A DNA stretch of 64,000 bases from a virus: IMG/VR virus record IMGVR_UViG_3300043803_000118, positions 1-64,000 of that record; one strand, 5' to 3'. The position numbers were made by a program, and so were the translations under genes. This document shows, in pieces, positions 16,205-57,900 of this stretch; the stretch's first letter is position 1; each line of letters opens with the position of its first letter. Below the pieces are notes generated by a model, which was not told where the DNA came from, made no database searches, and worked only from the letters and a program-made list of their open reading frames with translations.

Positions 16205-19200
16205 TTAGGCTTGACTATACTTCAATAACTTGTCTTGTGTACTATTACTTGTTTCAAGCCTATTGATTACTGAATCTAATTTATTAGACATCATTTCCAT
16301 CATTGATTGATTGATAGCGACTAACTCCTTGAACGCTTCTGGATCTTTACTACCCATTGCGGCTGCTTTGTCTTGCATTTGTGCCTGTATTTCTGTATTA
16401 GTTTTCTTACCTAATTCTGCTAAGAAACTGTTAGGATCTAGTGGCACGATCATTTCATTACCGTGCAATGTTGCTGGATATCCAGTTTCTGGACCCATTG
16501 CTAATCCACCTGCATCCGCGCTAACTTTTGTAGGTATTTTACCTGATCGCAATGCTTCTGCAAGAGTCTTTCCTTCAGTAGCCTGTTTATGACTTGATGT
16601 TTCGCCGTGACCAAATACCATAGACGCGCCAAATTTAGACATCAAACTTTTACCTAAATCAAATCCTGATTTTAATTGTGCGGTGCTTACATCAGAATCG
16701 TCTTTTGCTACTAAAGAAATACTTACAGAGTTGCTATTAGTAAGTCCAGGTTGCTTGTCTGTTTTTCCTGCGTGCCATGCTTTTTGATCTCCAGGGACAA
16801 ATTCTGTGATAGAGCCGTCTTGATCAACCATGTAATGGTAACCTAGACCTCTAGCCTTAAGTGTCGATATAGCACTTTGCAATCCTCTACCACCTGTATG
16901 GTGAACTATGATACCATCTGTCTTTTTTCTAGGTCCTTTTGCTGCGTCTCCTGCATCAGCCGCTCCCATTTTTAATGGGCCTGCAGGACCGCCACCTCCA
17001 CCACCTACTTTTCCTTCAGCGTCATCAGATGGTACTTTCTCAGAATCTTTTGATCCGCCACCTAATAATTTAGAAGCCCATCCAGAAGCCCAATCCATCA
17101 CTCCACCACCGGATGGCGTTGAAGGAACACTTACTCCGCCACCGCCACCGCCAACAGCCGCGGCTGGTTTACTACCGCTTCCTCCCCCGCCACCACCTGT
17201 TCCGCCTCCGGTAGTAGCACCTGGCTTAACCGGTTTAGCCTGCGGTGCTGCTGTTCCTCCGCCTGCCGTACCACTCATTGCTGAACTATAGGCAGCAAAT
17301 GCTTGTCCTAATTTTAACGCTCTATCTGGATCAACATCAAGTTTAGTAAACTTGACGAATTTACCCATGACATCATCACCACCAAACATTTTGACGATGC
17401 CACCAACGATGTTATCTGCGGCATTCGCGAGTTCTCCGCCGCCTTTAAATTCTGCTAATGCTTGACTAAAATATACGAATGCTTGTGCGTTAGTTTTGAC
17501 ACGTTTAGCACCATCTGACCCTAGATCGATCTTAGCAAATTTTTCCATCTTATTATAAGGTGCGTCAATTTGGAAGAATGATGCTACTCCCTCACTTAAC
17601 GTACCCCACATGCCTTGATCAGTACCTTTATATTTCGACATCGCATCGCCAAACGATGCCATTGCTTCTGCGTTATTTTTTACATTTGCAGAATTGATCT
17701 TGAGTTCACCAAACTCTTGTAGTTTCTTGAACGGGCCTTCTATTCCTAATCTACTTGAGATTTTATCTGTGAATCCACCTATCAAGTTGCCCATGCCGCC
17801 CACTGCTGATGCTCCACCGCCTACAGCAAATGCTTTATTGAATGCCATGAATGCTTCAGCATTCTTCTTGACTCTATCGCCGTCTATCTTGAGTTTATCG
17901 AACTCTTCAAGTTTCTTCATAGGACCATCTACGCCTAAGAAATTACCTAACTTATCACTTAGACCTCCTATGATTCCACCGATGCCTGCGGCCGCACCAC
18001 CTGCACCGAATACAGCAAGACCACCACCTATAGCAGCGATACCTTTGCCTGAATCAACTAACTTACTGCCGTCTAACTTCTCAAATGGTTGCAAGCCTTC
18101 TGCTAATGAAGGTAGTGCTTTGCCCATGATCCATGTAGCACCTGCAAGACCTGCGCCTACTGCGGCTATCGCTACACCGAATCCTGCCGCACCTGCAAGA
18201 ACCATTGGGTTCGCAAATGCTTTAAGACCTTTTGCCGCGCCTTCTAATATGTTACCACCACCTGCACCTAATGCTCCGGCTGCTTTACCTGCATTTCCGG
18301 CGGCGCCGGCTGATGCCGGAGACACATTAGGTATGCCAGATGCACCGCCGGGCACTACACCACCTGTGCCAGGCAACCCTCCACCTGCACCACCACCGAA
18401 CGGCATTATTCCTTTGATCTTGTCCATGACGCCACCAGCGGACGCTTTCTTGGCGGCTAGGACTAGCATACCTAATGCTCCTGCGGCTGCAAGAGCCGCA
18501 GTTGCCATTATTGGGAGTTTCATCGCTACGTCTTCTACTGCACCTGATGCTTTTATAGTTGCTTCTTGAATTTTAGCCTGAGCGTCTGCTGGTGCATCTT
18601 GACCTGGTTGTTGTGCTTTTTTACGTCCAGCTCGAATATCTATTAAATCTTGCTCTAAATTTTGATTCATTCTTTGAGAACGTTTCTTGTTGTCTTCTAC
18701 GTTATTAAAGTCAAAATCTTTTCTTGCTTGTTCCGAAACAAGCAATGCTCTTTCGCTTGATCTTAATCTGTTCTTTTGCTCTGCATAGTAATCTTGTTCT
18801 ACTTTTGCTGTTGCAAGTTGAGCATCTTTTCCTTCTTTCAATGAGTTAGCAAACTCAGCCATTGGACCTTGCATATTGTTACGTGCAAGTTTTCTTGATT
18901 CTTCACCAGATATAGTTCCAGTGATAAGCATTTCTTTAGCACCTTTTCTTAGTGCTTCGGGTGCATCGGCTAATGCATCTAATGCTTTTTCGCGTTGCTC
19001 CATTTCTCTTCTAACGGCTGCGGCTTCATCTAGACGACCTGCTTTAGTTAGATCATCAATCTTAATTTGATCCGCCATCAGTTTTACTTGGCGTTGAGCA
19101 TCTAGTGCATTTTCTTTTTGTTTTTCTTTAAGTGAAGCAACATCTTTACCAGTCAATGACGCAAGATCCATCAAACTAGTTTGATAATCTATGCTTGCTC

Positions 19201-20029
19201 TTCTTAATTTTTCTCTATCTTGTAATTCACCTTTAATTGAACGTCCCGATGCCGCTTGTAATGCAAGATAATCTGCGGTACCCTGCATCATCTCTTCTTG
19301 GGATATGCCAAGACGCATCATCTCTGCACGTTCTTCTGATGTAGCCTTGACTAACTGTGCGAATTCTTTTTGTGCGGCGCCGGCATTATTACCAAGAATC
19401 ATTATATCAGAGCCCAAACCCTTCATAGGTTTGATCATGCGACCTAATGTCTCGGCATTTAGGTCCGCATCACGGGCCATCTTTCTCAATGATTCAGTAG
19501 TATGGGCTCCTGCGGCGCCCATCTTGTTTAATTCATTTTTGCCGTCTAAGTAACTCTGTGTTATTTTTAGTTGTGCTTCAAGTAATACCGTAAGACCTTT
19601 AGTCAAACCACCTATGAGTAGCGCCCAACCACCTAATGCCTTACCTACACTTAGTGCGGCATCACCGACAGAACTGATGGCTCCGCCGAATTTAGTTATA
19701 TTAATAGACTGATCTAGTAATGCGCCGCCGAATGATCCTAACGCTTGTTTTGCTTTGTCAGACGCATCTTTGAGATGCATCTCGCTTTCACGTAGTTTTT
19801 TCTGTGCTTCAAGTCTGGCTAATTCGGCTTCAGTCAATCCCCTCGCACTTCTAGTCAGTCCGTCAATCGCTTGACCTGCCGTTTGACCTGCGGCACCTTG
19901 CGCTTTAACGCTGCCTGTAGTCTTTATACTGACTTGTCCAAAATCAGCCAAATTGGTCGATAGGGAGTTTAGCGTCCTATTTAAACGGTCTATGGAATCA
20001 TTCAGTTCGTCTATGTTGATATCAGCCAT
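16205..20029 (-). CDS. Tail tape-measure-like protein with peptidoglycan amidase domain
   Basis: 1274 residues. The N-terminal 500 are helical and coiled-coil-like; residues about 505-660 hold Gly/Ala-rich hydrophobic stretches typical of tape measures. Repeated FxKLDGSKL-type segments follow to about 940, then a Gly/Pro-rich linker. Residues about 1038-1160 look like an Amidase_2/PGRP domain: VHHTGG (H1043/H1044), YHYMVDQDG, WHAGK and FGHGE with H1141; E1152 stands where the third zinc ligand is usually Asp or Cys. A GPETGYPATLHGNEMIVPL motif near 1180 is common at the ends of tape measures. I infer that it sets tail length and cuts cell wall during entry. A separate VrlC-like structural role is an alternative. 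Read from a perfect TATAAATA promoter. Confidence 0.75.
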   Translation of the reverse strand: MADINIDELNDSIDRLNRTLNSLSTNLADFGQVSIKTTGSVKAQGAAGQTAGQAIDGLTRSARGLTEAELARLEAQKKLRESEMHLKDASDKAKQALGSFGGALLDQSINITKFGGAISSVGDAALSVGKALGGWALLIGGLTKGLTVLLEAQLKITQSYLDGKNELNKMGAAGAHTTESLRKMARDADLNAETLGRMIKPMKGLGSDIMILGNNAGAAQKEFAQLVKATSEERAEMMRLGISQEEMMQGTADYLALQAASGRSIKGELQDREKLRRASIDYQTSLMDLASLTGKDVASLKEKQKENALDAQRQVKLMADQIKIDDLTKAGRLDEAAAVRREMEQREKALDALADAPEALRKGAKEMLITGTISGEESRKLARNNMQGPMAEFANSLKEGKDAQLATAKVEQDYYAEQKNRLRSSERALLVSEQARKDFDFNNVEDNKKRSQRMNQNLEQDLIDIRAGRKKAQQPGQDAPADAQAKIQEATIKASGAVEDVAMKLPIMATAALAAAGALGMLVLAAKKASAGGVMDKIKGIMPFGGGAGGGLPGTGGVVPGGASGIPNVSPASAGAAGNAGKAAGALGAGGGNILEGAAKGLKAFANPMVLAGAAGFGVAIAAVGAGLAGATWIMGKALPSLAEGLQPFEKLDGSKLVDSGKGIAAIGGGLAVFGAGGAAAGIGGIIGGLSDKLGNFLGVDGPMKKLEEFDKLKIDGDRVKKNAEAFMAFNKAFAVGGGASAVGGMGNLIGGFTDKISSRLGIEGPFKKLQEFGELKINSANVKNNAEAMASFGDAMSKYKGTDQGMWGTLSEGVASFFQIDAPYNKMEKFAKIDLGSDGAKRVKTNAQAFVYFSQALAEFKGGGELANAADNIVGGIVKMFGGDDVMGKFVKFTKLDVDPDRALKLGQAFAAYSSAMSGTAGGGTAAPQAKPVKPGATTGGGTGGGGGGSGSKPAAAVGGGGGGVSVPSTPSGGGVMDWASGWASKLLGGGSKDSEKVPSDDAEGKVGGGGGGPAGPLKMGAADAGDAAKGPRKKTDGIIVHHTGGRGLQSAISTLKARGLGYHYMVDQDGSITEFVPGDQKAWHAGKTDKQPGLTNSNSVSISLVAKDDSDVSTAQLKSGFDLGKSLMSKFGASMVFGHGETSSHKQATEGKTLAEALRSGKIPTKVSADAGGLAMGPETGYPATLHGNEMIVPLDPNSFLAELGKKTNTEIQAQMQDKAAAMGSKDPEAFKELVAINQSMMEMMSNKLDSVINRLETSNSTQDKLLKYSQA

Positions 20030-20122: not shown

Positions 20123-20947
20123 ATGGAAAACAACCCACTAAAGCAGTATTTTCGTAGACCAGCAGTACATTTCAGACTTCCCAGCGAGGGTAAAGGATAC
20201 ATGCTTGGTGTCATAGACATCCCTGAATCAGGGGAAGTTCCTGTCTATCCCATGACTGCGCTTGACGAAATTACTATCAGAACACCCGACGCATTGTTTA
20301 ATGGTAGCGCGGTTGTAGAATTGATCAAGAGTTGCATACCTGCAATCAAAAATCCATGGCGATTAAACGCAAATGACTTAGATGCGGTATTGATCGCTAT
20401 CAGAGCGGCAAGTGGTCAAGATCAGTTAGAGGTTTTAACAACATGTCCAAAATGCGAGACAGCATCAACTTATGGATTGAAACTAAATGCTATATTGGCT
20501 CAGTTGAAGCAAGGAGATTATGATACTCCTTTATTAGTGAATGACTTGAGTATCAAATTCAGACCATTGACATATAAAGAGATGAATGAAGCATCCGTTG
20601 AACAATTCAAGATACAACGTCTTTATGGAAACATTGACGACATCAAGGATGAAGAAGAAAAGAATAAAAAGACACAGGACGCAATACGTGCTATCACAGA
20701 AATAACGATGAAAATCATTGCAAACACTGTTGAATATATCGAAACTCCTAATGCAAGAGTTGAAGAAAAACAATATGTCGATGATTTCTTGCACAACTGT
20801 GATGGTAGTGTCTACGTAGCGATTCGTGACCATAACGCAAAATTAAAGAACAGTACTGAATTAAAGCCATTAAATGTCAAGTGTATGAATTGCACTCATG
20901 AATATGAACAACCCTACACATTAAACGCCAGCGATTTTTTCGGCTAA
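20123..20947 (+). CDS. gp26: Baseplate hub protein gp26
   Basis: 274 residues, longer than the 208 of T4 gp26. The opening (QYFRRPAVHFRLPSEGKGY) and the segment VYPMTALDEITIRTPDALFN are family hallmarks. C108/C111 (CPKC) and C254/C257 (CMNC) form a probable zinc site. The protein is needed for hub assembly at the centre of the baseplate. The start has a GAGGA ribosome site. The last codons are GAT TTT TTC GGC TAA, which contain a U UUU UUC slippery heptamer; a -1 shift there continues into the gp51 frame. I infer two products, gp26 and a gp26-gp51 fusion of about 349 residues, like the G and GT chaperones of lambda. Confidence 0.9.
   Translation: MENNPLKQYFRRPAVHFRLPSEGKGYMLGVIDIPESGEVPVYPMTALDEITIRTPDALFNGSAVVELIKSCIPAIKNPWRLNANDLDAVLIAIRAASGQDQLEVLTTCPKCETASTYGLKLNAILAQLKQGDYDTPLLVNDLSIKFRPLTYKEMNEASVEQFKIQRLYGNIDDIKDEEEKNKKTQDAIRAITEITMKIIANTVEYIETPNARVEEKQYVDDFLHNCDGSVYVAIRDHNAKLKNSTELKPLNVKCMNCTHEYEQPYTLNASDFFG
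20935..20941 (+). promoter_or_regulatory. Probable -1 programmed frameshift site, T TTT TTC
   Basis: In the gp26 frame the codons are GAT TTT TTC GGC TAA. The heptamer T TTT TTC fits X XXY YYZ, so both tRNAs can re-pair after slipping back one base, and the next codon is CGG in the gp51 frame. The gp26 stop is one codon past the site. CGGC (20941-20944) can pair with GCCG (20971-20974) as a possible weak stimulatory stem. Confidence 0.7.
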
Positions 20948-21171
20948 GACTTCTTACCGCTGGCCCCGAAGCCGTAGAGAAGTATATTCAAGAATTGGAC
21001 AAAGAAGTAGAGGGCATCCGTAAATCAGCACTAACCATGTCCTGGTACATGAGAGGTGGTGCTACTTACGAGGATGTTCTAAACATGTCTAATTCGGAAA
21101 GAAAAGCAATCAGTGAATTAATCGATGACCACATCGATGTAACTAAGAAAACTCAACTTCCGTTCTTCTAA
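20941..21171 (+). CDS. gp51: Baseplate hub assembly protein gp51, probably made as a gp26-gp51 fusion
   Basis: The frame is open from 20908 (after a TGA) to the TAA at 21169-21171. From 20941 it encodes 76 residues starting RLRLLTAGPEAVEKYIQELD and ending with the gp51-type core: MSWYMRGGATYEDVLNMS, then RKAISELIDD, then TKKTQLPFF. No ATG, GTG or ribosome site precedes this core; the first in-frame ATG (21037) is the methionine inside the core and would give only 44 residues. gp51 in T4 catalyses hub assembly and is not in the virion. I therefore annotate it as the C-terminal part of a frameshift product. Initiation at TTG (about 20992) or at 21037 cannot be excluded from sequence alone. Confidence 0.8.
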   Translation, partial: RLRLLTAGPEAVEKYIQELDKEVEGIRKSALTMSWYMRGGATYEDVLNMSNSERKAISELIDDHIDVTKKTQLPFF

Positions 21172-21605
21172 TCTGTTTGGAAGACAAACTTCGTTTGTCT
21201 AAGTCTTCGCTGTCGCTCAGACTTATATTTTCTTTTGTTATCGGATTATATTGCCGCCTTAGAGTCCATGGTAGTGCTATTCAGCACTACCATTGGTAAA
21301 GACATTGCCATGCCCTATCACCCATGTCGTCTATTCCCCAACACACTAGCCTGTTTGCTGTATGTTGCTACCGGTTGCCCTGTAAAGTTTATGGGACTGT
21401 AGTGAGATACTGTTACATATCTCGGCAACGCATGTTCTATAATCGCAAGACAAAGTAGATTATAGACTCATTGAGGGTTCGCAAACCTGTCGATTGCCCT
21501 CTCGGTTTTCCGTAGATGTTATTCTACGCTTACTCCAGATCCGTCGGCACAGCACTACCTGTACTTCCTCAAGGAGGGTCGAGCACCTCGACCAAACTAA
21601 TTGTA
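21172..21605. other. Hairpin-rich noncoding region, possible structured RNA
   Basis: 434 bp with no credible ORF on either strand, between the convergent gp26-gp51 and gp55-gp47-gp46 operons. It looks richer in G+C than its surroundings. Perfect stems include AGACAAAC/GTTTGTCT (21182-21200), an 11-bp ATGGTAGTGCT/AGCACTACCAT (21268-21293), GTTGCC/GGCAAC (21374-21379 with 21424-21429) enclosing and abutting GAGATA/TATCTC (21404-21423), a 9-bp TCTATAATC/GATTATAGA (21436-21466), GAGGG/CCCTC (21473-21501), CGTAGA/TCTACG (21511-21528) and GGTCGAG/CTCGACC (21577-21593). I do not recognise a tRNA, tmRNA, RNase P or group I intron core. It could be a phage ncRNA or a long structured 3' end; the strand is unclear. 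Confidence 0.5.
21182..21236 (+). terminator. Tandem-hairpin terminator after gp51
   Basis: Hairpin AGACAAAC-TTC-GTTTGTCT (21182-21200) is followed directly by AAGTCT (21201-21206) pairing with AGACTT (21219-21224), then ATATTTTCTTTT. GAAGAC (21180-21185) can instead pair with GTCTTC (21203-21208), so two folds compete. The T-rich tract makes the second hairpin a plausible terminator. Confidence 0.55.
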
Positions 21606-22212: not shown

Positions 22213-23334
22213 TTAATTAGTCAAATAACCTACGCTGTAACTCTCATTACTTACAGCACAGTTATTGCACTTCTCTTCACATTCTACAAATGCTTTTTCT
22301 TTATCTTTAAAACTTCCGAACAACTTTTCCCACACATCATCGTTGATTATCTCTTCGAGGGTGCGTGTTTTTATATTCATCAAGTGTTCATATTTTCTGA
22401 ATAGACTTTCTTTACCTGCTATCACCTTATCAGTGATAGGACTTTGTCGTTGATAATACGGGGCGGCTACCCAACTACAAGGATATATCTGTCCATCAGC
22501 GTTTAAGTACAGACCTCGATTACCTATTAAACATAATGGCATGATATAATCGTCTTCATATTCTTTCTTTATCTCAAGCCACTTTTGTTTGTTTGTGTCT
22601 AGGTATTCTGTGTTATCTAATACTCTATTGCTTAATTTAATGGTACGTCTTTCATAGCGACCAGACTTGCTGATATATTCGCTTCTTGGTTCTAACGCAT
22701 CGTAATTATCATCTGTGTTGTAAGTACCGAATCTACTACCGAACTTTATGCTTCTAGTCAATTGCAAACTATCGCAGCCGTATTTTTGTGCCATAGTACG
22801 TATCTGTTGTAGATGGTCTTGATTGAAACTGAATATGATACTGGCCCATGTCACATATGCTTTTTTATTTGTAGTGACAGTGGTGAGACCTTCTATGATA
22901 CTGTCCCAATTGCTGTTTACTCTATATAGGTTGTTGCTAGCATCATCATATCCATCTATGCTAAATGCTATGGTGTCGCGTTCGTTAGATATTTCGCGCA
23001 ACTCCTCCCACCATTCTTTCTTTCTATAACTACCATTGGTGATCGTGTAGATGTGTATGTTTGGATTCACTGTCTTCACGTAACGTATGATATCGAGATA
23101 ATCTTTACAATATATAGGATCACCTACGTCACCACACATAGTCAAACGTTTTACCTGCGTCAATAATAATTCTTCGCTAAAACATTTCTTGAAAAGTTCT
23201 AATGATATTTCTTTTTGCAGCCATGGGATATCCTTGCGCATCTCTGTGCGCGGACATCGCGGGCACCTAATAGGACATTTACTGCTAGGTTCTATATGCC
23301 AGTGGTAAAATTGAAATCCATATTTGTTAAGCAT
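22213..23334 (-). CDS. Radical SAM protein with SPASM-like C-terminus
   Basis: 373 residues. C20-x3-C24-x2-C27 (SKCPIRCPRCPRT) is the radical SAM 4Fe-4S motif, followed by LTMCGDVGDPIYCKDYLDII (the GGE-like region) and TITNGS. The C-terminus has further cysteines (CLIGNRGLYLNADG, YPCSW, then CEEKCNNC near residue 355), as in SPASM auxiliary clusters. SPASM proteins often modify peptides or sugars; no substrate peptide is visible next to it. It overlaps the SDR gene by 8 bp (23327-23334), which couples the two. I infer an auxiliary metabolic or modification enzyme. Confidence 0.85.
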   Translation of the reverse strand: MLNKYGFQFYHWHIEPSSKCPIRCPRCPRTEMRKDIPWLQKEISLELFKKCFSEELLLTQVKRLTMCGDVGDPIYCKDYLDIIRYVKTVNPNIHIYTITNGSYRKKEWWEELREISNERDTIAFSIDGYDDASNNLYRVNSNWDSIIEGLTTVTTNKKAYVTWASIIFSFNQDHLQQIRTMAQKYGCDSLQLTRSIKFGSRFGTYNTDDNYDALEPRSEYISKSGRYERRTIKLSNRVLDNTEYLDTNKQKWLEIKKEYEDDYIMPLCLIGNRGLYLNADGQIYPCSWVAAPYYQRQSPITDKVIAGKESLFRKYEHLMNIKTRTLEEIINDDVWEKLFGSFKDKEKAFVECEEKCNNCAVSNESYSVGYLTN

Positions 23335-39933: not shown

Positions 39934-42900
39934 ATGACCAGAATACGTACACTAGAATTTTTACCGGGCATATTCCAAACTGAAACTAATAGTCAGTTCT
40001 TAGCAGCCACGCTCGACCAATTAGTCAATCCTCCTGTAACACAAACTATACAAGGATTCGTGGGTAGTAAATTTGGTTATGGTGTTGACGCTAAAGATTA
40101 CTATGTAACAGAACCAAATAAAGTTCGTAGAGATTATCAATTAGAACCGGGTGTAGTATTCTTAAAGGACAATGAAACTACTGCCTACGATTTTATTAGT
40201 TATCCTGGCATAATTGACTCATTGAAGTTGCAAGGTGCTATCACTAGTAGAAACGATGAGTTATTTGAAAGTCAGTTCTATAGTTGGGACAGTTTTACTA
40301 ACTTAGATAAGATCATCAACTATAATCAGTATTACTGGTTACCTGACGGTCCTCCCGCCGTAATAGTTGCGGCTTCAACTGTCTTTACAGAAAACGATTA
40401 CATAGTCAATTCACTGCCAGAAGCATACAATATCAGAGCAGTAGGCGCAGGTGTTGGTACTAATAATCCAACAATCACCTTATTAAGAGGTGGTACATAT
40501 AATTTTATAGTAGATCAAAACACAAGATTTTGGATACAGGGCGAGCCGGGAGTAACAGGCTATAGTCCTACGCAGCCTAATTTAAATACTAGAGACGTAT
40601 ACGGCGTTAACAACAACGGTGAAGACCGCGGCGTAGTATCATTTCAAGTACCTCAAAAAGATGCACAGAATGAATTCAATTACCCCGGTAATAATACAGT
40701 AGGTGTTGTTAGCACAAGACCTTTTAGCCAGATCAATGGTGCAAGATTAGCAGACATTGGCGGTATTGATGGGGTCACGGCACTAAATGGTAGAACAGTT
40801 ATGTTCTACAATACCGGCGTAACTAACGAGATAGGCTATGTTAGTTCATTCTTTGATCAATCAGCATATGATAGAAATACAGGATCTATTTCCTCACCGC
40901 TGACTATCAATGCTAGTTCGATAAATGGATTAGGTGCGATCACAGTAAGCAACGTTTCACAATTACAGATAGGACAGACTGTAACATTTGTAGGAACTGG
41001 TTTTGGTGGTATACAGGCATATAATGCTGACGTAGAAAATGCTATATCTACCAATAGTTTGATTGTAGGAAAGAAATATTTCATCGATCAAGTGGGAACG
41101 AGTAACTGGATCAATCTTGGCGTAGCATCAAGCGCAATAGTAGACGCACAGATTGTAGGTACACAGTTAAGAGTTTATAAAACTGTTTCTGGTTCATTCA
41201 GTATAGGTGATACATTAAATGGTTCAGGCGTAACTACAGGCACCAAGATTCTTGATTTTGATGAGATTGCTACCAACAATAATTATTTGAATGCGTCAAG
41301 TGTCACAGTAGGTGATTCATATCTTGTAAGATCATTTGTAGACGGTGCAGGAAATACAACCGACTTCACAGCGATGGGCGCTCCTGCTTCTGGCGTTATC
41401 AACGGTAGCATAGTAGGTACTGTGTTGACTGTGAACAGTATATCATCAGGTGCAGTCAATGTAGGATCTTATATAACAGGTCCCGGCATAGTAAAAGGTA
41501 CTTACATCGTAAGTCAAGGTACTACGGCTAACACATATGTTATAAACAAGACACAGGTCGTCACTGGTCCTATGACATTACAGCCAAGCGTGAACACATT
41601 GTTTACGGCTACTGCTGTGGGTTCAGGTTCAGGAACAGTGAGCATACCTACATATACAGTAAGCATCAACCAAACTGTTGCTAGAAGTAATATCAATGTC
41701 TATCCTATACAAGAAGGTACTATATTCACAGCAGCCGCAAACGATGCAGGCAACGGCTTTGTAATCCCATTTAATCCAGACATTTATTATGTGACTGGTA
41801 TTAATACTGGAACAAATCAAATCACTATAAGCCAATCATTAAATGGTCCTACGTTCTTACCTACTAGCCCCGCTAGCGGTTCTATGACTGTTAGAATCAA
41901 TCAAGGATTGTATGAGCAAGGATTTTATACTCAAGTAAACGACACATTCTATACTGTAGTATTCTTGGGTGATGCAGATGATCCTGTTCTTAGCCTAAGA
42001 CCTGCAGGTTCTATACCTATCGAACAAAAGATCACACCGCAATACGGTACACAATATGTTGGACTGCATTTCGTTAAAAATTCTACTGGTGTGATACAAG
42101 AATTACCGTACATCTCTGCCCCATTAGACACATTATATTATCAAGACGGTACTAATCCTAACAGAGTAGGCGTCATCAAATTGATTGAAAACAATGAGAC
42201 TAACTTGATCGATGTTGACGCTGATATATTAGGTAAAACGAATTATACATCAAAGAATGGTGTAGTATTCACTAATGGTTTGAAAGTCTCATTTGATGGA
42301 GATGTCATACCACGAAGTTATCTAAGTGGTGAATACTATGTAGAAGGTGTGGGCACTGCTATAGAATTAATATCTGTGACTTCATTGGAAGTTCCGGAGC
42401 CCTTCACTACATCAACATACAGCCCATATGATATATTACCATATGACATAGGACCGTTTGATGAAGGTTTAAATATACCTAACAATTCAGACTATATCAC
42501 AATAGCAAGAAATAGCATTAACAAAAATGCATGGGCGCGTAGCAATCGTTGGTTCCATATACAAGTCATACAAGCGACTGCGGATTATAACGATAACTCA
42601 GCCATACTTGATGAATATGCCAAATCAACAAATAAAGCAAAAAGACCTATACTTGAATTTTATCCTAACTTAAAATTATTCAACTCAGGTACTATAGGTA
42701 AAACTGCTGTAGATTTTGTTGATACTAGAACAACCAATGCATTTGAGTATGTAGAGAATCAACAGAATTATTATCCTGATGTACAAACATATACCGCATA
42801 TCAAGGAACTGTAAATTCTAACAACACACCTATCACTGTAGCCAATTTATTGATAGATCAATATTATGCTATAGAGACTTTAGGATCGACTTCTACTGTC

Positions 42901-45900
42901 ACTTGGCAATCATTGGGTGCAATACAAGATCAAGATGGTGGATTTGAAATAGGTGTAGAATATATCATAACAGATTTGGGTACCACTACACAGGCTAATT
43001 GGAATTTTATCGCTGGTACTACTACTACCCCAGTCTCATATTCGGTGGGCAATAAATTTACAGCAAAACAATCAGGTACAGGTACCGGCAACGGTACTGC
43101 GCTCAAAGTATTGTTCCAAACATCACTTGCCGGTGTATTGAATTCTGATGAACTTGCATCTGGTCAAATGTATACGATCACTTCATTGGGTACCACTCAG
43201 TGGAATAATATAGGCTATGTCGGTACTCCTATAATAGGTGGCACATTTACTGCTAGCGGCCCTGCTATTGGTACGGGTACTGCTATACAGGGTAACGGAA
43301 CTGTAAAACAAAAAACTACCACGACAGTAACTATCGATCCAGATCATGTCACGGGCACATTTAGTCAAGGTCAATGGATAAATGATCTAAGATTGAATAA
43401 TCCAAGCGCGTTGCCTATAGGTACTAGAATACTTTCTATAGAAAATACAGATCCTTATCAGATGACTGTATACTGGCCTATACCATCTAACAACATAGTT
43501 TCGGCAGTGACCAGTGCATCATTTGTAGCAAGCACAAAAGACAATACTGATTTATTGTTGTTTCCCGGCGCTAGAGTTGTGTTCGCAGCAGATGAAAACC
43601 TATTGATAAGAAACAAGATTTATGTTGTGGGCTTCAACAACACTGGATCAGAATCATATCCAGTCATCACATTGACTGAAGCAGAAGACGGCTTAGTTTT
43701 AGAAAACGACATGTTCAGCGTTGAGAAAGGTTTCTCTAATAAAGGAAAAACTTTCTATTTCGATAGTGATGAATATAAGCAAGCACAACAGAAACAAACA
43801 GTTAACCAAGCACCGTTATTTGATATCTTTGATGAAAACGGCATAAGTTATGGTGATGAAACTGTCTACAACAGTTCGTCATTTACTGGATGTAAACTGT
43901 TTAATTACAAGATCAGTGAAGGTATAAATGACACTATTCTAGGATTCCCTATCAGTTTTAGTTCTATTAACAACGTAGGTGATATCTCATTTGAAGTGTC
44001 ATTATATACACAGCAATTTGATTATATCGACAATGGAAGCTCAGTCACTTCATATGTAAATAATGGATTTGTTTATGATTACAATACCAGAGATGAATAT
44101 GATAGATTGATCGGCTGGCAGACAGCAGTAGCACCAAGTACACAGTATCAAGTATTTCAATTTGAATATGTTGCGAATGATCCTGCATTAGTCTTAGAGC
44201 CAGAACAGACTTTTGATTATGTAGTGACTGTAGACGTACCGCAATTAAGTGTTGATACAACGATATGGCCTAGCCTCGAAGTTTACAACAACAATAATAT
44301 ATTGACATTGGGTACAGATTATACTGTAGAAAACAAGATCGATTCTACAGTGATCACTATCAAGTTGTCTGAAGATATAGACACACCTATTGAAGTGTTG
44401 ATATTGAGTAACAAGGTAAGTGCAGATGCTTATTACACTATACCTATCAACTTAAGCAACAACCCATTCAATAGCAATCCAGATAATGTAGACATCGGTG
44501 ACATACGCGGTCATTATCAAACTATTTTTGATAATAATCCAGACACATCAGGCGTGATGTTTGGTTCTAACAATTATCGCGATCTAGGTAACATGGTACC
44601 ATGGGGCAATAGAATCATACAGAATAGCGCAAGCCTTGTATTGCCCGGCGCATTCTTGCGTAACCCAAGACATAACTTATTTGATTCTCTATTATTCAAC
44701 AGCAGAGAATATATCAAGTTCAAGACATTATTAGTCGATACCACAGACAAACTTAACATTCAGCAAAAATATGATCCGGCGCTTATACTTGATCTAGCAT
44801 TGGATACTATAACTTCAGTCAAGAGCCAAGACCAACCATTCTTCTGGTCTGACATGATACCTAACAAGGCACCATATATCAGTCAGACATATAACTTTAA
44901 TAATCAAGCAGAGACTAGTGTATTTCCATTAAGCAAGATTTACGATTTTAGTACTGCTAACTATGATGGTGTTCTAGTTTATCTACAAAGAAAGATACAG
45001 GGCATCGTAGTTACTAAGCAATTAGTAAGAGGCACAGATTATGTAGTAAGCATAGATAGTCCTAGCGTGACAGTCAACGTGTTTTTACAAACCAATGATA
45101 AAATCATAGTCAAAGAATATAATCAAACTTATGGTTCTTATATCCCCAACACTCCAACTAAGTTGGGTCTATATCCATTATATCTACCTTCAGTAGTATT
45201 GGATAATACATACATAGAACCTACTTATTTCATACAGGGTCATGATGGCTCATATAATAAACTATATGGTGATTATAATGAAACTCTAGGAATGTTAGTA
45301 GACTTCAGAGATCAAGTGTTATTAGAGTTTGAGACTAGAGTTTATAATAACATCAAACTAAGTAGAACATTACCTATCGAAACTGCTGAAATCGTTCCGG
45401 GTTATTTCCGCGACACAGCATTATCATATGTTGAATTCACAGAAATATATAGTAAGAATTTCTTAGATTGGATCGGTCAAAATAGACTTGATTACAAAAC
45501 ACAATTATATAACGCTAACGATCCTTATACATACAACTACAGAGACAGTAGTTTAAAATTAGATAATAGCACAGTGTTGCAAGGATATTGGAGAGGTATA
45601 TACGAATACTTGTATGATACTTCTACACCAAATTTGACACCGTGGGATATGATCGGTTATGCAAATAAGCCTGTCTGGTGGGAAGATCGTTATGGTCCTG
45701 CCCCATACACAAGCAATAACTTAATTTTGTGGACTGACCTACAAAACGGTATTGATTACAATGGCGGTCAACCAGTAGTAAGAACACTATATAAGAGACC
45801 GGGATTGCTAGAGATAATTCCTGTTGATAGTCAAGGAGAACTAAGACAACCAATAGATGCAGTCATAGGTAACTACAACCAACTGACATTTAAGCGCGAC

Positions 45901-48900
45901 TGGAGAGTAGGTGATGACGCACCTGTAGAATATTCATATCGTAAGAGTTCTACATATCCTTTCGATCTAATGAGACTTGAGGCATTATTGAAGCCAGCAG
46001 CATTCTTTAATTTGGGTGCTGACTTAGACAACTACAAATATAACGCTGAGTTCAATCAATTCTTGGTCAATGAAAGAAATCACTTAGTACCAGCCAACAT
46101 AGAAATTTATGGTAATGGTACTGCCAAGACAAGTTATATCAACTGGGTAGTTGACTACGAAAAACAATTGGGCGTTGATGCTACTAAGAATATCAAAGAA
46201 TTGCTAACTAATCTTGATGTAAGATTGGTATATCGTTTAGCAGGTTTTAGCGACAAGACACTATTGAAGTTTTTCGTTGAGAAGGGAACACCTGAGTCAC
46301 GTAATAGTTCATTGTTGATTCCTGACGAAAGTTATCAGATTCTACTATATCAGAATCAACCTATGACTAAGTTGATATATTCTGGTGTTGTAGTACAAAA
46401 AATGCAAGAGGGTTATGCTGTGTTCGGCAACAGCCAGACTACAGCATTCTTTAAAATATTGAAGCCTATATTGAACGGTCCTAAGAAAAGAGTCACTGTT
46501 CAAGATGCAACGGTAAATGTAGCAGACAATTATTCTAGCGAAGAAGAGATCGTGCCATATGGTACAATCTATTACAGTCTGCAAGATGTAAGCCAATTCT
46601 TGATGAGTTATGGTGCTTGGCTAACAGCCAATGGAGCAGTGTTTGATGATCAGATACAAAACGTTGCTATCACTTGGAATCAAATGGTAGCAGAATTCTT
46701 GTATTGGACACAAACTGGATTTATCGACGGTAGCATTATCACATTGAATCCTTCTGCTAGAAAGTTGACTATCGATAAAGAAAGTCAAGTTGTCCAGCCA
46801 TTGACATATGATAACAGTAATTTTGTATTGAACAATAATATGTATCCAATACAAAATAAAGATTTGAGCATTTTCAGAGATGGTACTAGATTTAGCATAT
46901 CACCATTAAATGAAGGTGATGCAGTATCATATGGTCAATTTAGTTTGAGCAATATTGAACATGCGGTCGTATTTCAAAATGAGACATTGTTCAACGACAC
47001 TATCTACAACTTGGAATCTGGATTGAAACAAAATCGTATCTATGTTCGCGGCACTAAGAGCGGTGAATGGAACGGTACATTGTTCGCATCAGGATTCATC
47101 TATAATCAAGATAACATACAAGAGTGGGTACCCGGATTAAAATATACTAAGGGTGCCATCATCAAGTACAAGAACAAATACTTCACAGCATTGAAGATAG
47201 TACAACCAAATCTAAAATTCAAAGAAGATGAATGGAAAGAAACTGACTACGATGAAGTTCAAAAAGGATTGCTACCTAACAGTAGCACACGTAGTTATGA
47301 AAGCGCATTGTACTATAATGCAAATAAAGCAAACCTAGAACAAGATGCAGACTTGTTGAGTTTTAGTTTGATAGGATTCAGACCACGTGAGTACATGGCA
47401 AGCGCAGACTTGACAGATATCACACAGGTAAATGTTTACAAAAATCTAATCAGAGAAAAAGGAACATTGAATGCAGTGAAGGCATTCAAGGGTGCAAACT
47501 TACCGCAAGGCGGAATCGATTATGATGTCTATGAAAACTGGGCTATAATGCAAGGCACGTTCGGCGGTACGTTGAACGATAACTTTGTTCAGTTCAGATT
47601 AAAAGAATCTAATCTCTCAAACAACCCGTCTATTGTAGGTATCACTGACGGCAATGATATAGAAGGTGCACAACAATTAGTACCGTTATATTCATTGTTT
47701 AATTACGGCAGACCTGTCACCGATCCTAATATACTACCTGAAGTAACTTCAGACATTCCTAGCGCAACATTCCCTACAGCGGGATATGTAAACGTAAACG
47801 ATGTTAAGATGTCAGCATATTTCTATAGCAATCTACCAACTGCTGTGGGTAAAGACGGTCTAACTGTATCGTTATCACAACTTAATGTCGGCGATTATGT
47901 ATGGCTTGCTGACTATAAAGCAAGTTGGCAGATAATGACACCATCTAGCGTCGGTAGAGTATTGTTAGTTCGCAACAATTTAAACGGGACTAGCACAGTT
48001 CGATTTGCCGATAATCATAACTTGAATCGTTATGATATATTTGCTATCATCAATTTTGACGGCTCAGTAAACGGTTACTATGTAGCAAATAATATTATTG
48101 GTCCTAAAGAAGTATTGATAACGTTGACGTTATCTCCTAGCGTGAGAGCGGTTGTAGGTGAAGGGGCAGCATTGAGATTCGCCTCACAAAGAGTTACTAA
48201 GCCCGGCAATGTACAAAATCTACCGTTATTGAACAATGAATTCACAAAGAATACAGTTTGGGTAGATGAGAATAATGACGGAGGTTGGGCAGTATATCGC
48301 AAGAACATAAACTTTAAATATCAGCGAGAATTCACAAAAGAAAATAGTCAGAAGTTTGGTTCCGCGGTAGCGTACACTCCACTCATAGATTATTTGTTTA
48401 GTGATCCTAACTTGGGTAAGGTATATCGTTATCAGTTTGATGCAACCACTGGTGATTATGATCTTGATGAGATATTGTCCGGGGTCACAACTTTCGGTAC
48501 TACTATAGTTCATGAGCAGAACATAGTAGCAATCTCACAACCAGAGAACACACCTAAAGTTTCATTGTATACTGTAAACGATACAAGAGTCACTGATAAC
48601 ATCATATTATATCAAGAAATATTAGCATCAAGCATAGGTGCTTCTATAACTAATTTCGGTAAGGGATTGGCACTGTCAGGTGATACTAATTGGTTGTTCA
48701 TAAGCGACTACAATGAAAATCCTATAGGCACAAGAAACAAAGTACATGTATTGCGCAAGAGAAATCAGATCATCGATGTAGATAATACCACTGTTCTTGA
48801 CGCCGCGGCGACATATCAGATACTTGATCCTGGCACAGTTAATTGGGTTGATCTAGCACTTGAACCTATCGCTAATGAAACAGGCATATACCTTAAGTGG

Positions 48901-51900
48901 GACGGAACGACAACACCGACAGGCGAGGGCACGGCTATACGTTGCGATTATCAATATGTCGCTACTATTGACGGGGACGCTACAATAGATAGATTTGGTT
49001 ATTCATTGTCCACTAATAATGATGGCACTATACTAGTCGTAGGTGCACCAAGCAAAGATTTAGATGTGGTGAATCAAGGTCGTTCATATGTATACAATAG
49101 ATTAGTACAGAATTATGAAGTACCCATAGGAACAACAGCCCCGTTGACATTCACACTAGCATGGAGCCCTACTGTAGGGTTACCACTGACAGTTTCTAAA
49201 AATGGAATCGTTATAGATCCTAGCGATTATTCGTTCTCCGGAACTACGTTTATTTTTACCGGCACTTATGCAGTAGGTGATATCATCACAGTAAGTGGCA
49301 ATCAGTTCGTCAAAATACAAGAGATGAATGTCTCAGAAGACAATACTAGAATAGGCCCGCAGTTTGGACATTGTGTCGATAGCAACACCTTTGCTACTGA
49401 AATATTAATAGGTGCTCCTTTCTATATTAGTTCTATTAATTCGGAAGGATCAGTGACTAGATATACCAACGGGTCTGCAAGATTCGGAACAATCACTAGC
49501 ACTTCAGATGTAAACGTAACGACTACTAGACAATTATTGATAAATGGTTACTTAGTAAGCATACCAGCCGGCAATGCGAGTGCGGCCGCATCGGCTATCA
49601 ATAATGCTACGATCACAAATGTAGTTGCATCTGCGAACGGTTCTAAATTAACCATTAGCCTAATTAATTCTAATCTAGCATTAAGCAATCAAGAATTATT
49701 GATATCAGTGACAAACAATGTTACATTGTCTGAGTTAGGGTTTCAACTCTATGCTAAGACACAGACCATACTCAATCCGCACTTGACCGGACCTAGCCAG
49801 TTCGGCACTGTGATCAAGTTTAACGAACACAATAGCGTAGCAATTAGCGCACCATCTGGTACTCGTTATGCGCTAACTACTTTTGATTTTATTGATGATG
49901 AAAATTATCAAAATGATACAATCTTTGATAATAATTCAACACAATTCTTAGACTCATTTGCAAACGCAGGTGCTGTATACGCATATGACTATCTAAGTAA
50001 CTATAATGAATCGCTATTGAACATAGGTAATTACACTTATGCTCAAAGCGTAAATGATACTAGCCTAGATTATGGTGCTCAACCTAGATACGGTTCTGCT
50101 CTAGATTGGTCTGCTGGAAGAATTGTTATAGGATCTCCTGACTATAGACCAGAAGACCTAGACGGACAAGTAGTGATATATGATAACACATTAGGTACTA
50201 CAAACTGGATAGTTTTGAGACAGACTAGCCCTGTCGTTGACATCGACAAGGTTTATAATGTACAACTGTTCAGCGCAGAGACTAACAATACACTCAGCAA
50301 TTTAGATTACATGGATCCATTGCAGGGTAAATTATTAGGAGCGATCAGACAAAATATAGATGTAATATCTAATATCGATCCTGCAGGTTATAACAACTCA
50401 GCCGCTACTGCAACACTAGTATGGGGCGAAGCACAATTAGGAACTATATGGTTCGACACATCAAATATACGTTATGTCGATTATCATCAAAACGACAACA
50501 GTTATAACGCACGTTATTGGGGCTCATTATTCCCAGGCAGCGATGTTGCAGTATACAGTTGGGTAGGCAGTACTGTGCAGCCTTCTGCATATACTGGCCC
50601 AGGAACTCCTAAAGATATCTCTAGTTATACTGTACAAACAGTATTGAATAGTTCAAATACTATAGTACCTGTATATTATTTCTGGGTAAGAAACACAGGC
50701 ATCATTTACAATGGTAAGTCATTATCTGATATAAACATAACGCAATATTTGATCAATCCAAAATCATCCGGTATCAGTTATATGGCACCAGTCAGACCTG
50801 ATGCAGTAGCATTGTATAACGTAAAGCCATTCTTAAATTCTAATGATACTGTATTGCAATTAGGCTATAGCACCGGTAGCCAAGACAATCCTGCGCATCA
50901 ACAGTTTACATTGATTCGTCAAGATTTCCCCGATGATTTCTTGCCCGGTGTTCCCGGAACAAGAGGGTATGTCACACCTCAAACATTATACGATAGACTG
51001 TTAGATAGTATGAGCGGTGTTGACGAGACTGGTGCTGTGGTGCCAGATCCGTTCTTACCAAAAGCAGTTCAATCAGGCGTATTAGCAAGACCAAGACAAA
51101 GTTTCTTCTATAATCGCTATAAAGCGATACAGAATTATCTACAATATGCCAATACTATCATGGCATTGTATCCTATATCTGAGATTAGATCATTCAACTT
51201 CTTGAATACCTCAGGAAGATATTATGATACTACAGACTATTGGGAAAACATCAACTGGTGGGCACCTGGCTACGATAACAACACTAAGGCAGTATTACAG
51301 GTTCAAGTGTATGCTGACCTGTCTACATTGGAAGTCTCTATAGGAACTATAGTAACTGTAGCACAAAACAGCAATGGATCTGCTGAAACATATCGTTATG
51401 ACGGTGAAGGCGTATGGACTAGAATTGGATTACAGAACGGTACTATCAGATTCAAAGATGAATTATATGATTATTCTGCGGCTGGATATGGTTTCGGCGG
51501 CACGTTCTATGATACAGATAGTTTCGATGTGTTCCCGAGCGAAGAAACACGTTGGATCATACGTGCATTGAACGAGCAGATTTATACTAGTGAATTATTG
51601 ATATACAGAAACAAGAGTTTGATACTATTGTTTGAGTATATCCAAGAAGAGACTATAGAAAATCAAAACTACTTGCCATGGTTGAATAAGACATCATTGA
51701 TTGATGTATCACACAAAGTTCGCGAACTGAGAGAATTAAAGAATTTCGTCAGCGATAACGAACAGTTCCTAGAAGGTTATATCAATGAGACTAAACCTTA
51801 TCACGTAGTGATCAAAGAATTCTCATTCGACTATGAAAGAACTGATGTATATCCAGGCACATTGACTGACTTTGATCTACCTGCAACTTATGATACCAAT

Positions 51901-54900
51901 ATCGATAAGTTCGTCAGTCCGGAACTCGTATACAGCAATCCAAATACAGATTATGAGTTTTTACCAGATGATTCAGTATGGACTAACGAAAAATATACTG
52001 AATGGTTTAACAACTATGGTGTCAGTTTAACAGGTCAAGAAAACTATCATATAGCAAAACTTGAATCATACTTGACATTATCAAGTCAGAATATGATCGT
52101 AGATAATCCACAAGGATTCCCAGTTAACGGTACTGTGATTATCGGTGAAGAAAAAATAAGTTATGCTAACGTAGATAGAGGCACGGGATTGATCACTGGT
52201 TTGACTAGAGGTGTAGACCAAACTACAATCACTGATCATCTACCAGGCGCACAAATACGTATAGATTTGCCAGGAGTCTTAGTATTAGACACAGGTAGAA
52301 ACTATGCCAACCCACCAAGAATCTTAGCGTCTATTGATACTACGATATATCCAGAACCTAAACAAGAGGCTGTGCTTGAAGCAGTGATGAGTCTAGGTAG
52401 CGTTGTGGCAATTAATGTCATTGATCCGGGTCAAGGTTATGCTGTGACGCCAGAGATCGTGATAGATCCTGCTGAGAGATTCTCATTCAATAGCAGTAAC
52501 GTTAGTGTTGCTAACAATACTATCGATATCTATGCACCAATATTGGTGACAGGTGATCTAGTTCGTTATGTTGAAGGCACAGAAAACGTAGGTGGATTAG
52601 CAAACAAACAATACTATTATATCAACGTGTTGAGTTCAAGTCCTACAACTACATTAGCATTGTATACAACATATGCTGATGCGTTGAACGATAATAATCG
52701 CGTAAAATTCTTGACTCAAGGTACAGGAACTCAAAACTTTGAGTTTGGTGCTAGAGCAGTACCTATCACATCAAGCACTCCGATCAGAGAAAACAATATC
52801 ACGTTGCGTTTCGACAGAACAACATACAATACACAAGTATCTGACTGGACTGCTAACACTTTCTATGGTTCTGAATTCGTCAGTTATACATTAGAAGGTG
52901 CAAGTAGTGAGGTGTCATTGGCATCCGTTCAACCTGATATCAACAGAATATTATCAAGCGCACAGGGAACTGCATTTCCTATAGTGAACATAACTAATGA
53001 TAGAGATATAGAATGGTCGTCATTTGAGAGATCAATCGACTATATCGTATCTAATAATGAAATTAAGTTAGTATATACTAGTAGCCCCGGAGACGAAAAC
53101 CCATCTGGATCTACTGTAGGTTTCACTATTGGTATGCCAGTAAAATTCACTGGTGTCACTGGCCCGCAGATCATAGCAGGTCAGACATACTATATTTCTG
53201 AAATCGTAAGTCTTAGCGGATTCAAGATTAGTTTGACACAGGGCGGTAGCACACTAGCATTGACCCCGAACTCATACTTAGATATGAAGATGTTCACAGC
53301 GCAAGTCATAGATACTGCTGAGATCACTACAATATATTCAGGTTACAGAAATGTAACAGCAACTACTCAAAGCAACGATGCAGTCAAAGTAGAATTGACT
53401 GCTATAGGTACCGGTGGAACTAACGGGCTATACACAAACTTGCCGGTATACTTCACAGGAACAATATTCGGTGGACTAGAAGCAGACAAGATTTATTACG
53501 TAGTCTCAGTACTGGGCAGTGAACTATTCACGTTGTCAGAAACCCCTGATCCGGCTACAGTACGTGTGTTAGAGATGAATGCGGCAAGCCAGATAATAGT
53601 ACAAAACACAAATGGTTTAGAAGTCAATGATCCTATCGTATTCGATAGTATGTCAATTAATGGCGAAGCAGTAGATACATTTGGAAACATACAACGACAA
53701 GTGATATACTATATTAAGAGTATAGGTATCAACGTGATCACTATAAGCACCACACCAGGCGGTAGCACATTCAACACGGGTGTTGTTGCTCCGGCAAATG
53801 GCAATTATTGTTTCATCACTAGTCAGGCTAGTGTTAAGCAGTTGACCAACGCTACAGGTAGTTGCACTATGGTAGTGTCATTACCAGTAAGCCCGGGCCA
53901 AGTCGACGGACAGAAATTTACTTTCTATCCTACATCACAGCACTATGCAGATATCACAGCACCTAACTTGACATATGGTAATCTTTTACAAAAGAACATT
54001 GAACAAACATTATCGGATAATGATGTAGCGTTCTCATCAAACAGAACAGGTTTATATACCGGATTCCCATTCACTGTGTCAGCAACAGTAGGAGCAAATA
54101 TTCCTAGCAACATCGGTGGACTACAATCAGGCAAAACATATTATGCATACGACATAGGAAATGTAGAAATAGTATGTCAATCATCTACTTCTTCAACGCT
54201 AGTCTACAATGCATCATTCACTGGAACTACGATGAATGTCACATCTATCACTAGTGGTTCAGGTGTGTTGTATCCAGGCACATTAGTGACTGGTACCGGT
54301 GTTCAAACAAATACCTATATCAAGAGTTACATAAGCGGCACAGGTGGAGTAGGAACATATGAAATAAGCAAAGATTATTTCGTTCCAGTAGTAACTACCG
54401 ACACAACATCTGTGACTGGTATATTAACAGTAGCAACTGATTACAATACTAACATGATCTATGAGGGAATGCCTATAGTGTTCTCATTGATACCGTTGGG
54501 CGGTATAGTATCAGGATTCACTTACTATGTTAGACATATCATAAGCGGTACACGATTTACTGTAAGCCAAGTTAAAGACGAAGCATCTATATCACTGACA
54601 GTTAGCAATGGAACTATGTTGGGTACAGGTAGCCCTTCATTGAAGGCATACTTACCACTAGGATCATTGACGACTGGCTACAAGTACGTAATACGTGATG
54701 TGGGTGATGGCACACCATCGACCGCTTGGTCAACTATAGGTGCCACATATATAAACAACGTAGCGACATTGACTCCGGGTCAAAAAATCATCATTTATAC
54801 TACAGGAACTACTAACTGGAACATCATAGCCGGAACTACCGGAGTTACATACAATGTCAATGATATCCTCACAGTAGAAAATCCCGGTATATTGACGGTA

Positions 54901-57900
54901 GGAGCAGGTACTGCATTTATAGCGGAATTCACAGCCACAGGCACCGGGTCGTTGACTGATGCAGGTAGTGCTACAGTAGTCTTGGCAGCATCTGGCGATA
55001 CTGCTACATTAGATCAAGAAATAATCGCAGATCCTACATTTGATGTTGGATATATACTGGGCGGTTATAGTGTTGTTATAAACAACGGTGGTCTAGGATT
55101 CACACAAAATAACACTATCACTATACCGGGAACATTATTGGGCGGTACTACACCTGATAATGATTTGACACTAACGGTATCAAGAATCAATGCGATAGAA
55201 GCGGGTGCGTTTAGTTGGTCATTACCAAGAGAGAGTGACGGAGAGATCACAAAAGTTATAGAGTCCGGAACACCGATCGGTACTGCTACAAACTATTTCT
55301 TGAAAGTAACCGGCACTAATACTTTCAAGGTATACAGCGACCCATTGATGCAACTACCAGTAAGCGGAATCAATTTCCCGTATCAAGGATTCACACAGAA
55401 AAACGTGACGCAGATATCTGCTACTAGTATAACAATGAGTAACGTTACTGGTTTAGCAGTGAATGATAATATAGTATTCACTAACTTACCTACAGGGTTG
55501 AGCATAGTAGAAGGGCAAACTTATTATGTTCGTTCTATAATAAGCAATAACATTACCATAGCGACAGAACCAGGTGGTACAGCGATAACAGTGGGTACAG
55601 CAGGCCCGTTCACTACAAATTATCCTGTAGCGACTAAGCCAGGGTCATTCATGTTGCTACCAGAACCGTTCGCATTCACTCCAAGTATAGTTAAGTATAA
55701 CAATCGTGTTTGGATGTGTATTGTTTCTAATAACGATGACGAGTTTGTGTTTGGTAAATGGGAACAATTGAATAGCGGTGATCGCAGATTGAATGCATTA
55801 GATCGTGCTAAGGGTTACTACGATCCTGATGTGAACATGCCCGGTACAGACTTGACACAATTGTTCACTGGATTGACATATCCTAACACTACTTACAAGG
55901 GTAACGCATTCGAACCTGATCAGCAGTATCCGATAGATACTAGATTAGTAGATACACCATTTGATCCTACTCAGGTTAATGTTCCTGCTATTGAATGGGA
56001 TGGACAAAATTACATCGCTCCTGCAAACTTACCTAACTATGCGGCAGTAATCGCAGATATTGAAATACAAGATGAGTGGTTGCTATCAACATTAGCAAAT
56101 CAAACATTGTCGTTGACCGATATCACTAAGGGTGATGACGTTTACTTGATGACATCAGCCAACTCACCGACTCCGTTATTTAAGAGCGTAGATAAAGTAC
56201 GTTGGAGCACTAATGGATTTGTAGTACCTATAGGTACACCTCCCGAATCAGCAGACTTCTTCAAAGTAAGATTGATCGCGGCGGGCATACCATTGAATGC
56301 TGTCACATATCATGATGGCTTGTATGTGGCTGTAGGTAAGAGCATACTTACAAGCACAGATACTACGATGTGGTATGAGAGATTTAGATTCCCGATATTT
56401 GACCAATTTAGAGATTTGTTTGATGTTTCTTACGTAGAGACTACTGCATTCTCTGGTTATATCGCAGTAGGTGTAGACTTGCTCAATGACGCATTGATAT
56501 TAAGAAGCACAGACGGAGAGTTTTGGACTAGAGTTACAGGATTGAACGATAGAACTCTAAAGGGAGTGGCATCTGGATTCAATACGATTTATGTAGTGGG
56601 AACTAGTGCTGGATTGTTAACTAGCCCAGACGGAGTAGTTTGGCAGCAAGTATCATTGCCAGGTTCACCTAGCGACTTCAATGCGGTCACGTTCGCAGAT
56701 AATACATTGGTTATAGTCGGCAATGGTGGCCGTGTATATGTATCTACAGACGGCGTGAACTTCACACAGAAATTTACAGGCACACCACAAAATCTAAACG
56801 ATGTGATGTATGTTGAAGAAAGAGATCAATGGACTATTGTTGGAAATAATAATACGATATTACAAACTCAAAATATCGCAGCCAACCCGGTTACATGGGA
56901 TATCACTCAGGTGTTCTCAAGCCCTGATCCTGACTATACTGTGCAAGGTGATCCATTCTTAAGCGGCTACGGTCCAGAAGAAATGGTGCCCGGCATCGTA
57001 TCTGATCAATTAACTATGATTGTTAATACAAGAGCAGGAACAACTTGGCCAGCAACTGAGTATGCGCACGTGGGTTACAATGTTGTATCTACTGAGTATA
57101 CTATAGACACTGTTACAAACAAATATAGTTTTAACGGTATCGTTCAAGACCCCGCATACATCAATGTGTTCTTAGTTAACAACGGTACTAGCAGAACATT
57201 GTATTCTGGCTTGAACTCACCTAACTTGACATATACTGTAGACTGGGTCAATAAGACAGTCTCATTAGGAAATTATGTTTTCGCAACAGGTGATACATTA
57301 CGTATCGATGTATACGAAGTAGGTAATGGCGATCAGTTGGTCAAGTCAAGCACATATGATGATCCTATCGAACTTAACTTAACTACTGGATTCAGCGAGA
57401 TCGCATTAGACTGCAACTATAACAACGTTGGATATAGTAGCGGCGGCATCGTGTTACCAAATACTTCAGGTGAACTATATGCTAAACCAGCAGTATTCCA
57501 TAATGGTGTATTGCTCAACTCAGGTTTGACAAATTATGTATTGTCAACTCAAGCATCGACACATTATATCACAACTTACTCTACACAAGGTTTACTAGTA
57601 GATCAGCCTATCGTGTTTAGCGATACTATATTTGGTGGCATAACACCTAACACAACATATTATGTTCGTGGGATAATCAATGCTACACAATTCACTATCA
57701 AAGATGCAGCGGGAGATCCTATATATCTAACTACCGCTAGCGGTTCTGCAATATTCGTGACTAATGATTTTGCAGTAGGTATCGCAAACAACCAGATCAA
57801 TGCTAAAGTGATATTTGCTAAGAATTATAGTAAAGTGACAGATTATCTATCATACTCATTCTTTGGTCCTTCAGAGCCGATACAGTATGGTTTCACTATA

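Follow-up and report, generated by a model that had tools for sequence, protein, structure and literature searches.

Does the gp26-like gene of an uncultured T4-like virus end at its stop codon, or is its frame also joined, by a programmed -1 frameshift, to the frame that lies behind it? The gene is found in the window, i.e. the whole stretch of 64,000 nucleotides analysed here, which is part of a 70-kb virus record carrying T4-like head, portal, gp46/47-type, late sigma and baseplate genes; the source is an uncultured T4-like virus of bacteria. As judged from the comparative data presented below, one gene very probably gives rise to two tail-assembly chaperones through a -1 frameshift at T_TTT_TTC, stimulated by a stem. 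The features of the locus are collected in Table 1. Elsewhere in the window, a gene for a radical SAM protein (22213-23334, minus strand) lies between the chaperone locus and the gp46/47-type nuclease genes, and a single ORF of 6540 codons (39934-59556, plus strand) lies downstream of a baseplate wedge gene.

Table 1. Features of the gp26-like locus and its surroundings (positions in the window).
Feature	Position	Strand	Evidence or remark
gp26-like gene, short form (TAC-N), 274 aa	20123-20947	+	PF12322 T4_baseplate, E 4.5e-19
Slippery heptamer T_TTT_TTC	20935-20941	+	in frame, one codon before the stop
0-frame stop codon TAA	20945-20947	+	within the spacer separating slip from stem
Stimulatory stem-loop (predicted)	20949-20983	+	covariation, MFE, alifold
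-1 frame (TAC-C), 76 codons, then stop	20941-21168, stop 21169-21171	+	conserved domain, pS >> pN
Two hairpins, then T-rich tract, terminator-like	21172-21238	+	sequence and alignment; role inferred
Structured RNA, about 360 nt, without Rfam match	~21239-21605	+	3' of the chaperone gene
Probable tape measure protein, 1274 aa, C-terminal Amidase_2	16205-20029	-	Amidase_2, E 1.6e-18

Slip site and -1 frame

The end of the gp26-like gene (20933-20947) reads GAT TTT TTC GGC TAA. A previous reading of the window from its sequence only had claimed that this frame closes with T_TTT_TTC one codon before the stop and that a -1 slip leads into the downstream frame; direct reading bears out both statements. 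Past the slip the sequence is read as CGG CTA AGA CTT CTT and so on, and the frame, which opens 37 nt upstream of the first stop, remains open through 21168. In the larger ORFs of the window (about 19,600 codons), an in-frame T_TTT_TTY occurs three times, and only one of these lies at a gene end; the presence of T_TTT_TTC at the end of this gene is more than chance.

The same reading had proposed to align the junction in related phages, in search of a conserved slip and a missing downstream start. A first search with the gp26 protein returned 45 loci, and the junction could be read in 41 sequences (the window and 40 loci), all of which keep T_TTT_TTC in frame (41/41). A second search with an alignment, overlapping partially with the first set, gave 80 loci, of which 79 were readable, and again the heptamer was kept in every one (79/79). 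Distant contigs such as L027, L030, L042 and L043 retain the slip, with the stop moved 4-6 codons beyond it. In a phage collection, T_TTT_TTC or T_TTT_TTT was present in 14 of the 15 records read, the former in Phosso, Atu_ph07, Vibrio 2.275.O, 121Q, PA5oct, RaK2, Munch, SCTP-2, GAP32, XaC1, cyanophage S-SSM7 and Schizotequatrovirus PC-Liy1, and the latter in XacN1 and CM1; Vibrio phage SD25 (Ackermannviridae) has neither motif at its junction.

Conservation extends to positions that are silent in the protein. On a tree of 98 sequences, parsimony assigned 0 and 1 silent changes to the third bases of the two slip Phe codons, compared with 15-32 changes at each of 13 other conserved twofold-degenerate codons. 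The codon before the slip may encode D, N, S, H, Y, R or A, and its third base is always T. Because these silent positions are frozen and the preceding codon always ends in T, selection acts on the nucleotides and not only on the Phe-Phe pair.

As the sequence-only reading had stated, ATG and GTG are both lacking in the window's -1 frame ahead of its conserved core. The only near-start codon is a TTG at 20995, which lies 18 codons beyond the slip and already within the conserved domain, and the first ATG falls in ALTMSWYM, in the core. The missing start holds for most relatives and not for all: between the upstream stop and 10 codons past the slip, ATG, GTG and TTG are all absent in 46 of 63 non-redundant loci, while in the remaining 17 a start does lie close to the slip, and reinitiation could add some product there.

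The product of the -1 frame is conserved across relatives as a protein (RLLL...WYMRGG...ETTKK...LPFF), and pS greatly exceeds pN in most pairs; by this measure the frame is under purifying, protein-coding selection. The AlphaFold2 model of TAC-C is all-helical (pLDDT 85.7). A Foldseek search with this model gave no match, and the C-terminal domain of 74-76 aa matched nothing in Pfam or PHROGs. In the public records NC_071039, NC_042013, KM507819 and NC_019526, the -1 frame of the chaperone is either absent or cut short, or else it is annotated as a hypothetical gene of its own.

Downstream stem-loop and competing explanations

A predicted stimulatory RNA structure lies at suitable spacing from the slip. 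In the window, its outer stem pairs ACTTCT (20949-20954) with AGAAGT (20978-20983) and begins 7 nt past the slip; most relatives have GCTTCT with AGAAGC instead. Across 74 sequences, the outer stem is closed by GC in 55, AU in 13 and GU in 4, and the stem contains 84 double-change cells versus 34.6 in shuffles, with none of 500 shuffles as high. A control with slid partners showed far less pairing than the true stem partners.

Folding energies agree with this covariation. The 44 nt after the slip have a mean MFE of -14.0 kcal/mol versus about -3.5 elsewhere in the gene, and when the -1 frame was resampled synonymously, the observed value was -13.9 versus -5.8, with z < -1 in 99%. For the stem-loop itself, the MFE is -12.0 versus -6.8 in synonymous resampling, and alifold of the stem alignment gave -10.7 versus -0.9 after column shuffling. 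It should be noted that RNAalifold on the 74-row alignment returned no structure at first, and that the stem appears with RIBOSUM scoring. Single-sequence folding of the window's own stem against dinucleotide shuffling gave a modest z of -1.04, and the case for the stem therefore rests on the comparative data. Long perfect stems at a similar distance from the slip are present in Atu_ph07 and S-SSM7, and folding revealed no strong stem after the slip in RaK2, Munch and GAP32. A second dip in MFE, about 80 nt downstream, can be put down to amino-acid content (z -0.13). No Shine-Dalgarno-like stimulator was found upstream of the slip, and a limited literature search returned no description of this stem-loop. 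Overall, the slip site and its supporting hairpin are unusually well conserved at this gp26-like locus.

According to the proposed mechanism, most ribosomes would terminate at the 0-frame TAA (20945-20947) and release the short form TAC-N, while a minority, held by the stem 7 nt downstream, would slip back one base at T_TTT_TTC and translate through the stem in the -1 frame. The predicted long form, TAC-NC, is 349 aa long, i.e. gp26 residues 1-273 plus 76 aa. The two forms, made in a fixed ratio, would coat or fold the tape measure protein during assembly of the tail and baseplate hub, as lambda gpG and gpGT do. Slippage, its efficiency and the chaperone role are what we infer here, the last of these because of the published gp26/gp51 assignment.

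The downstream frame could instead be a separate gene, reached by translational coupling or by reinitiation at a start near the gp26 stop. Some relatives do have an ATG at the overlap (e.g. 121Q, L006 and L014), Phosso and 121Q are annotated in GenBank with separate genes that overlap, and the junction of SD25 reads TAATG without T_TTT_TTC. However, the window offers neither ATG nor GTG, its TTG lies 18 codons along and inside the domain, 46 of the 63 relatives have no near start, and coupling would account neither for the frozen Phe codons nor for a stem placed at frameshifting distance, all of which makes a separate gene very unlikely. Even less probable is slippage of RNA polymerase on the run of six T, which would yield a mixed mRNA pool with the frames fused. 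The homopolymer run does exist and the same protein would result, but six T make a short run for a polymerase to slip on, the relatives with T_TTT_TTC show no lengthening of it, every one of them keeps the run exactly in phase with the 0-frame codons, and the stem 7 nt downstream suits a ribosomal signal.

It might finally be supposed that TTT TTC is kept only for its two phenylalanines, FF being invariant at the protein level, and that the open -1 frame is due to chance or to a sequencing error. Silent positions are frozen only at the slip, though, and the -1 frame is under coding selection, which refutes this explanation; moreover, about 100 contigs, and isolates as well, show the same arrangement, and we regard the probability of this last reading as negligible. 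The programmed -1 frameshift joining both frames, as the sequence-only reading had suggested, is thus strongly supported by the invariant slip codons, the covarying stem, the purifying selection and the mostly absent starts. The same comparative evidence supports the prediction that the locus follows the logic of lambda G/GT.

Relation to T4 gp26/gp51 and to other systems

TAC-N belongs with the T4 baseplate proteins: it scores 69.4 bits against PF12322 T4_baseplate, the gp26/gp51 family (curated cut-off 24.5), and matches phrog_150, baseplate hub, with E 2.3e-21. Among BFVD entries, its AlphaFold2 model (pLDDT 87) is similar to hub proteins of T4-like baseplates (best E 2.2e-23), and no match was found among PDB structures.

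In T4, both gp26 (208 aa) and gp51 (249 aa) match PF12322, and gp51 consists of the same N-terminal domain as gp26 with a C-terminal extension continued in frame. T4 thus has two PF12322 genes, while every other record searched has at most one and none was detected in SCTP-2. The 70-kb record contains one PF12322 match, and no second complete PF12322 gene with a C-terminal extension, as in T4 gp51; this record is a fragment, and the whole genome may hold more. T4 gene 26 ends GAG TTC TTT GAG TTA CTA TAA and, since it reads TTC TTT, the slip is absent. The idea that T4 gp26/gp51 themselves obey the same frameshift logic is therefore wrong: T4 has two genes of one family, and the slip is gone.

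The naming of the downstream frame as gp51 also needs qualification. It corresponds to the C-terminal part of gp51 and not to the whole protein, because T4 gp51 is itself a gp26-type PF12322 domain followed by a C-terminal extension. A further link is phrog_634, common to the C-terminus of T4 gp51 and the small cyanophage frame called gp51; it ties only the cyanophage frame, and not the C-domain of the window, to T4 gp51. Direct homology of the window's C-domain to the end of T4 gp51 is weakly supported: in a comparison of the two, an HMM search run against decoys was not significant (E 0.47), and hhalign gave a probability of 75% (E 2.4e-5). The cyanophage in question, Synechococcus phage S-SSM7, has GAT TTT TTC GCC TAA followed by a perfect 12-bp hairpin, and its C-terminal domain aligns weakly with that of the window (hhalign probability 75%).

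The abstract of a study by Vladimirov, Gautam and Davidson (2022, Virology 566:9-15) is said to state that frameshifting is conserved in several T4-like groups and that T4 uses genes 26 and 51. Among papers that cite this study, PMC10885494 (PRFect) mentions that frameshifting is replaced, in some T4-like phages, by a pair of chaperone genes, one short and one long, and PMC12846349 that TAC-N genes of T4-like phages are known to carry poly-T slip signals. As these citing passages report it, tail-chaperone frameshifting in T4-like phages is of a known kind, and the impression that none had been described for T4-like hubs gives way to an earlier report (Vladimirov et al., 2022, via PMC10885494 and PMC12846349). 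The T4-like chaperones of that report resemble those of the window in having a gp26-type short form, a longer form extended by a C-terminal domain and a poly-T slip (as described in PMC12846349); the uncultured lineage of the window may not be included in its set, and T4 uses two PF12322 genes.

A T-rich slip, a -1 frame open in all members and a hypothetical annotation elsewhere are also features of phage Adele and the Vandenendeviridae, which differ in the motif (GTTTTT, not T_TTT_TTC) and belong to another phage family (PMC12846349). The lambda pair G/GT likewise comprises a short and a long form from one gene, the long one arising by -1 slippage just ahead of the stop (Xu, Hendrix and Duda, 2004), and acts with the tape measure protein, as is proposed for the pair of the window. 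The lambda chaperone gene lies upstream of the tape measure gene in the same operon, whereas that of the window is divergent. The slip and the protein family of the window (T_TTT_TTC and PF12322) are different from those of lambda. The lambda slip is GGGAAAG.

Neighbouring tape measure gene and structured RNA

The chaperone gene adjoins, in divergent orientation, a putative tape measure gene. Its 1274-aa product gave a BLASTP match (E 7e-07) to RaK2 ORF088, a protein recorded as similar to a tape measure protein, and carries an N-acetylmuramoyl-L-alanine amidase domain (Amidase_2) at its C-terminus. There is moderate support for regarding it as the tape measure protein, the presumed client of the chaperones.

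On the other side, about 70 nt past the TAC-C stop and beyond the terminator-like hairpins, an ORF-poor stretch begins that shows strong covariation and contains a probable pseudoknot (21327-21332/21448-21453). Its DNA identity is 68-90% across most close relatives, and the consensus fold scores -120 versus -52.5 for shuffled columns (z -10.8). Wherever both TAC-C and the RNA were visible in newly fetched loci (114 of 114), the RNA lay on the same strand as TAC-C and downstream of it; in the loci outside this set, either the locus ends before the RNA or the match is spurious. Examples from relatives are L067:3637-4032, L101:4372-4778 and L070:3676-4105.

An Rfam search with the RNA found no family, with one weak opposite-strand fragment match in L098, far below the cut-off. 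In isolated phages, blastn returned nothing and the RNA model scored at most 18 bits, compared with 148 for the window, which is not convincing. Pattern matching in genome contigs gave three hits, about as many as chance would produce with 18 specified bases in 257 Gb. In the isolated jumbo phages 121Q (L052:3547-4382), Munch (L055:3541-4223), GAP32 (L058:3544-4347) and XaC1 (L061:4469-5260), the chaperone locus is followed by unannotated gaps of about 0.7-0.8 kb, none of which matched the new RNA model. We tentatively suggest that the chaperone gene and an undescribed RNA specific to this lineage (about 360 nt) belong together as a fixed unit. This RNA would comprise at least ten helices, mostly covarying, besides the probable pseudoknot, and might act in tail assembly or operon control.

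This locus provides a clean comparative case for gp26/gp51 -1 frameshifting: in about 100 uncultured contigs the slip codons are frozen and the stem, at canonical spacing, covaries. As a finding, the structured RNA next to the gene is probably more novel than the frameshift. The slip recurs in cultured jumbo phages whose long form lacks annotation. The findings fit the view that a frameshifted single gene was replaced by separate gp26 and gp51 in T4, a view that becomes testable in culturable phages such as 121Q and Atu_ph07.
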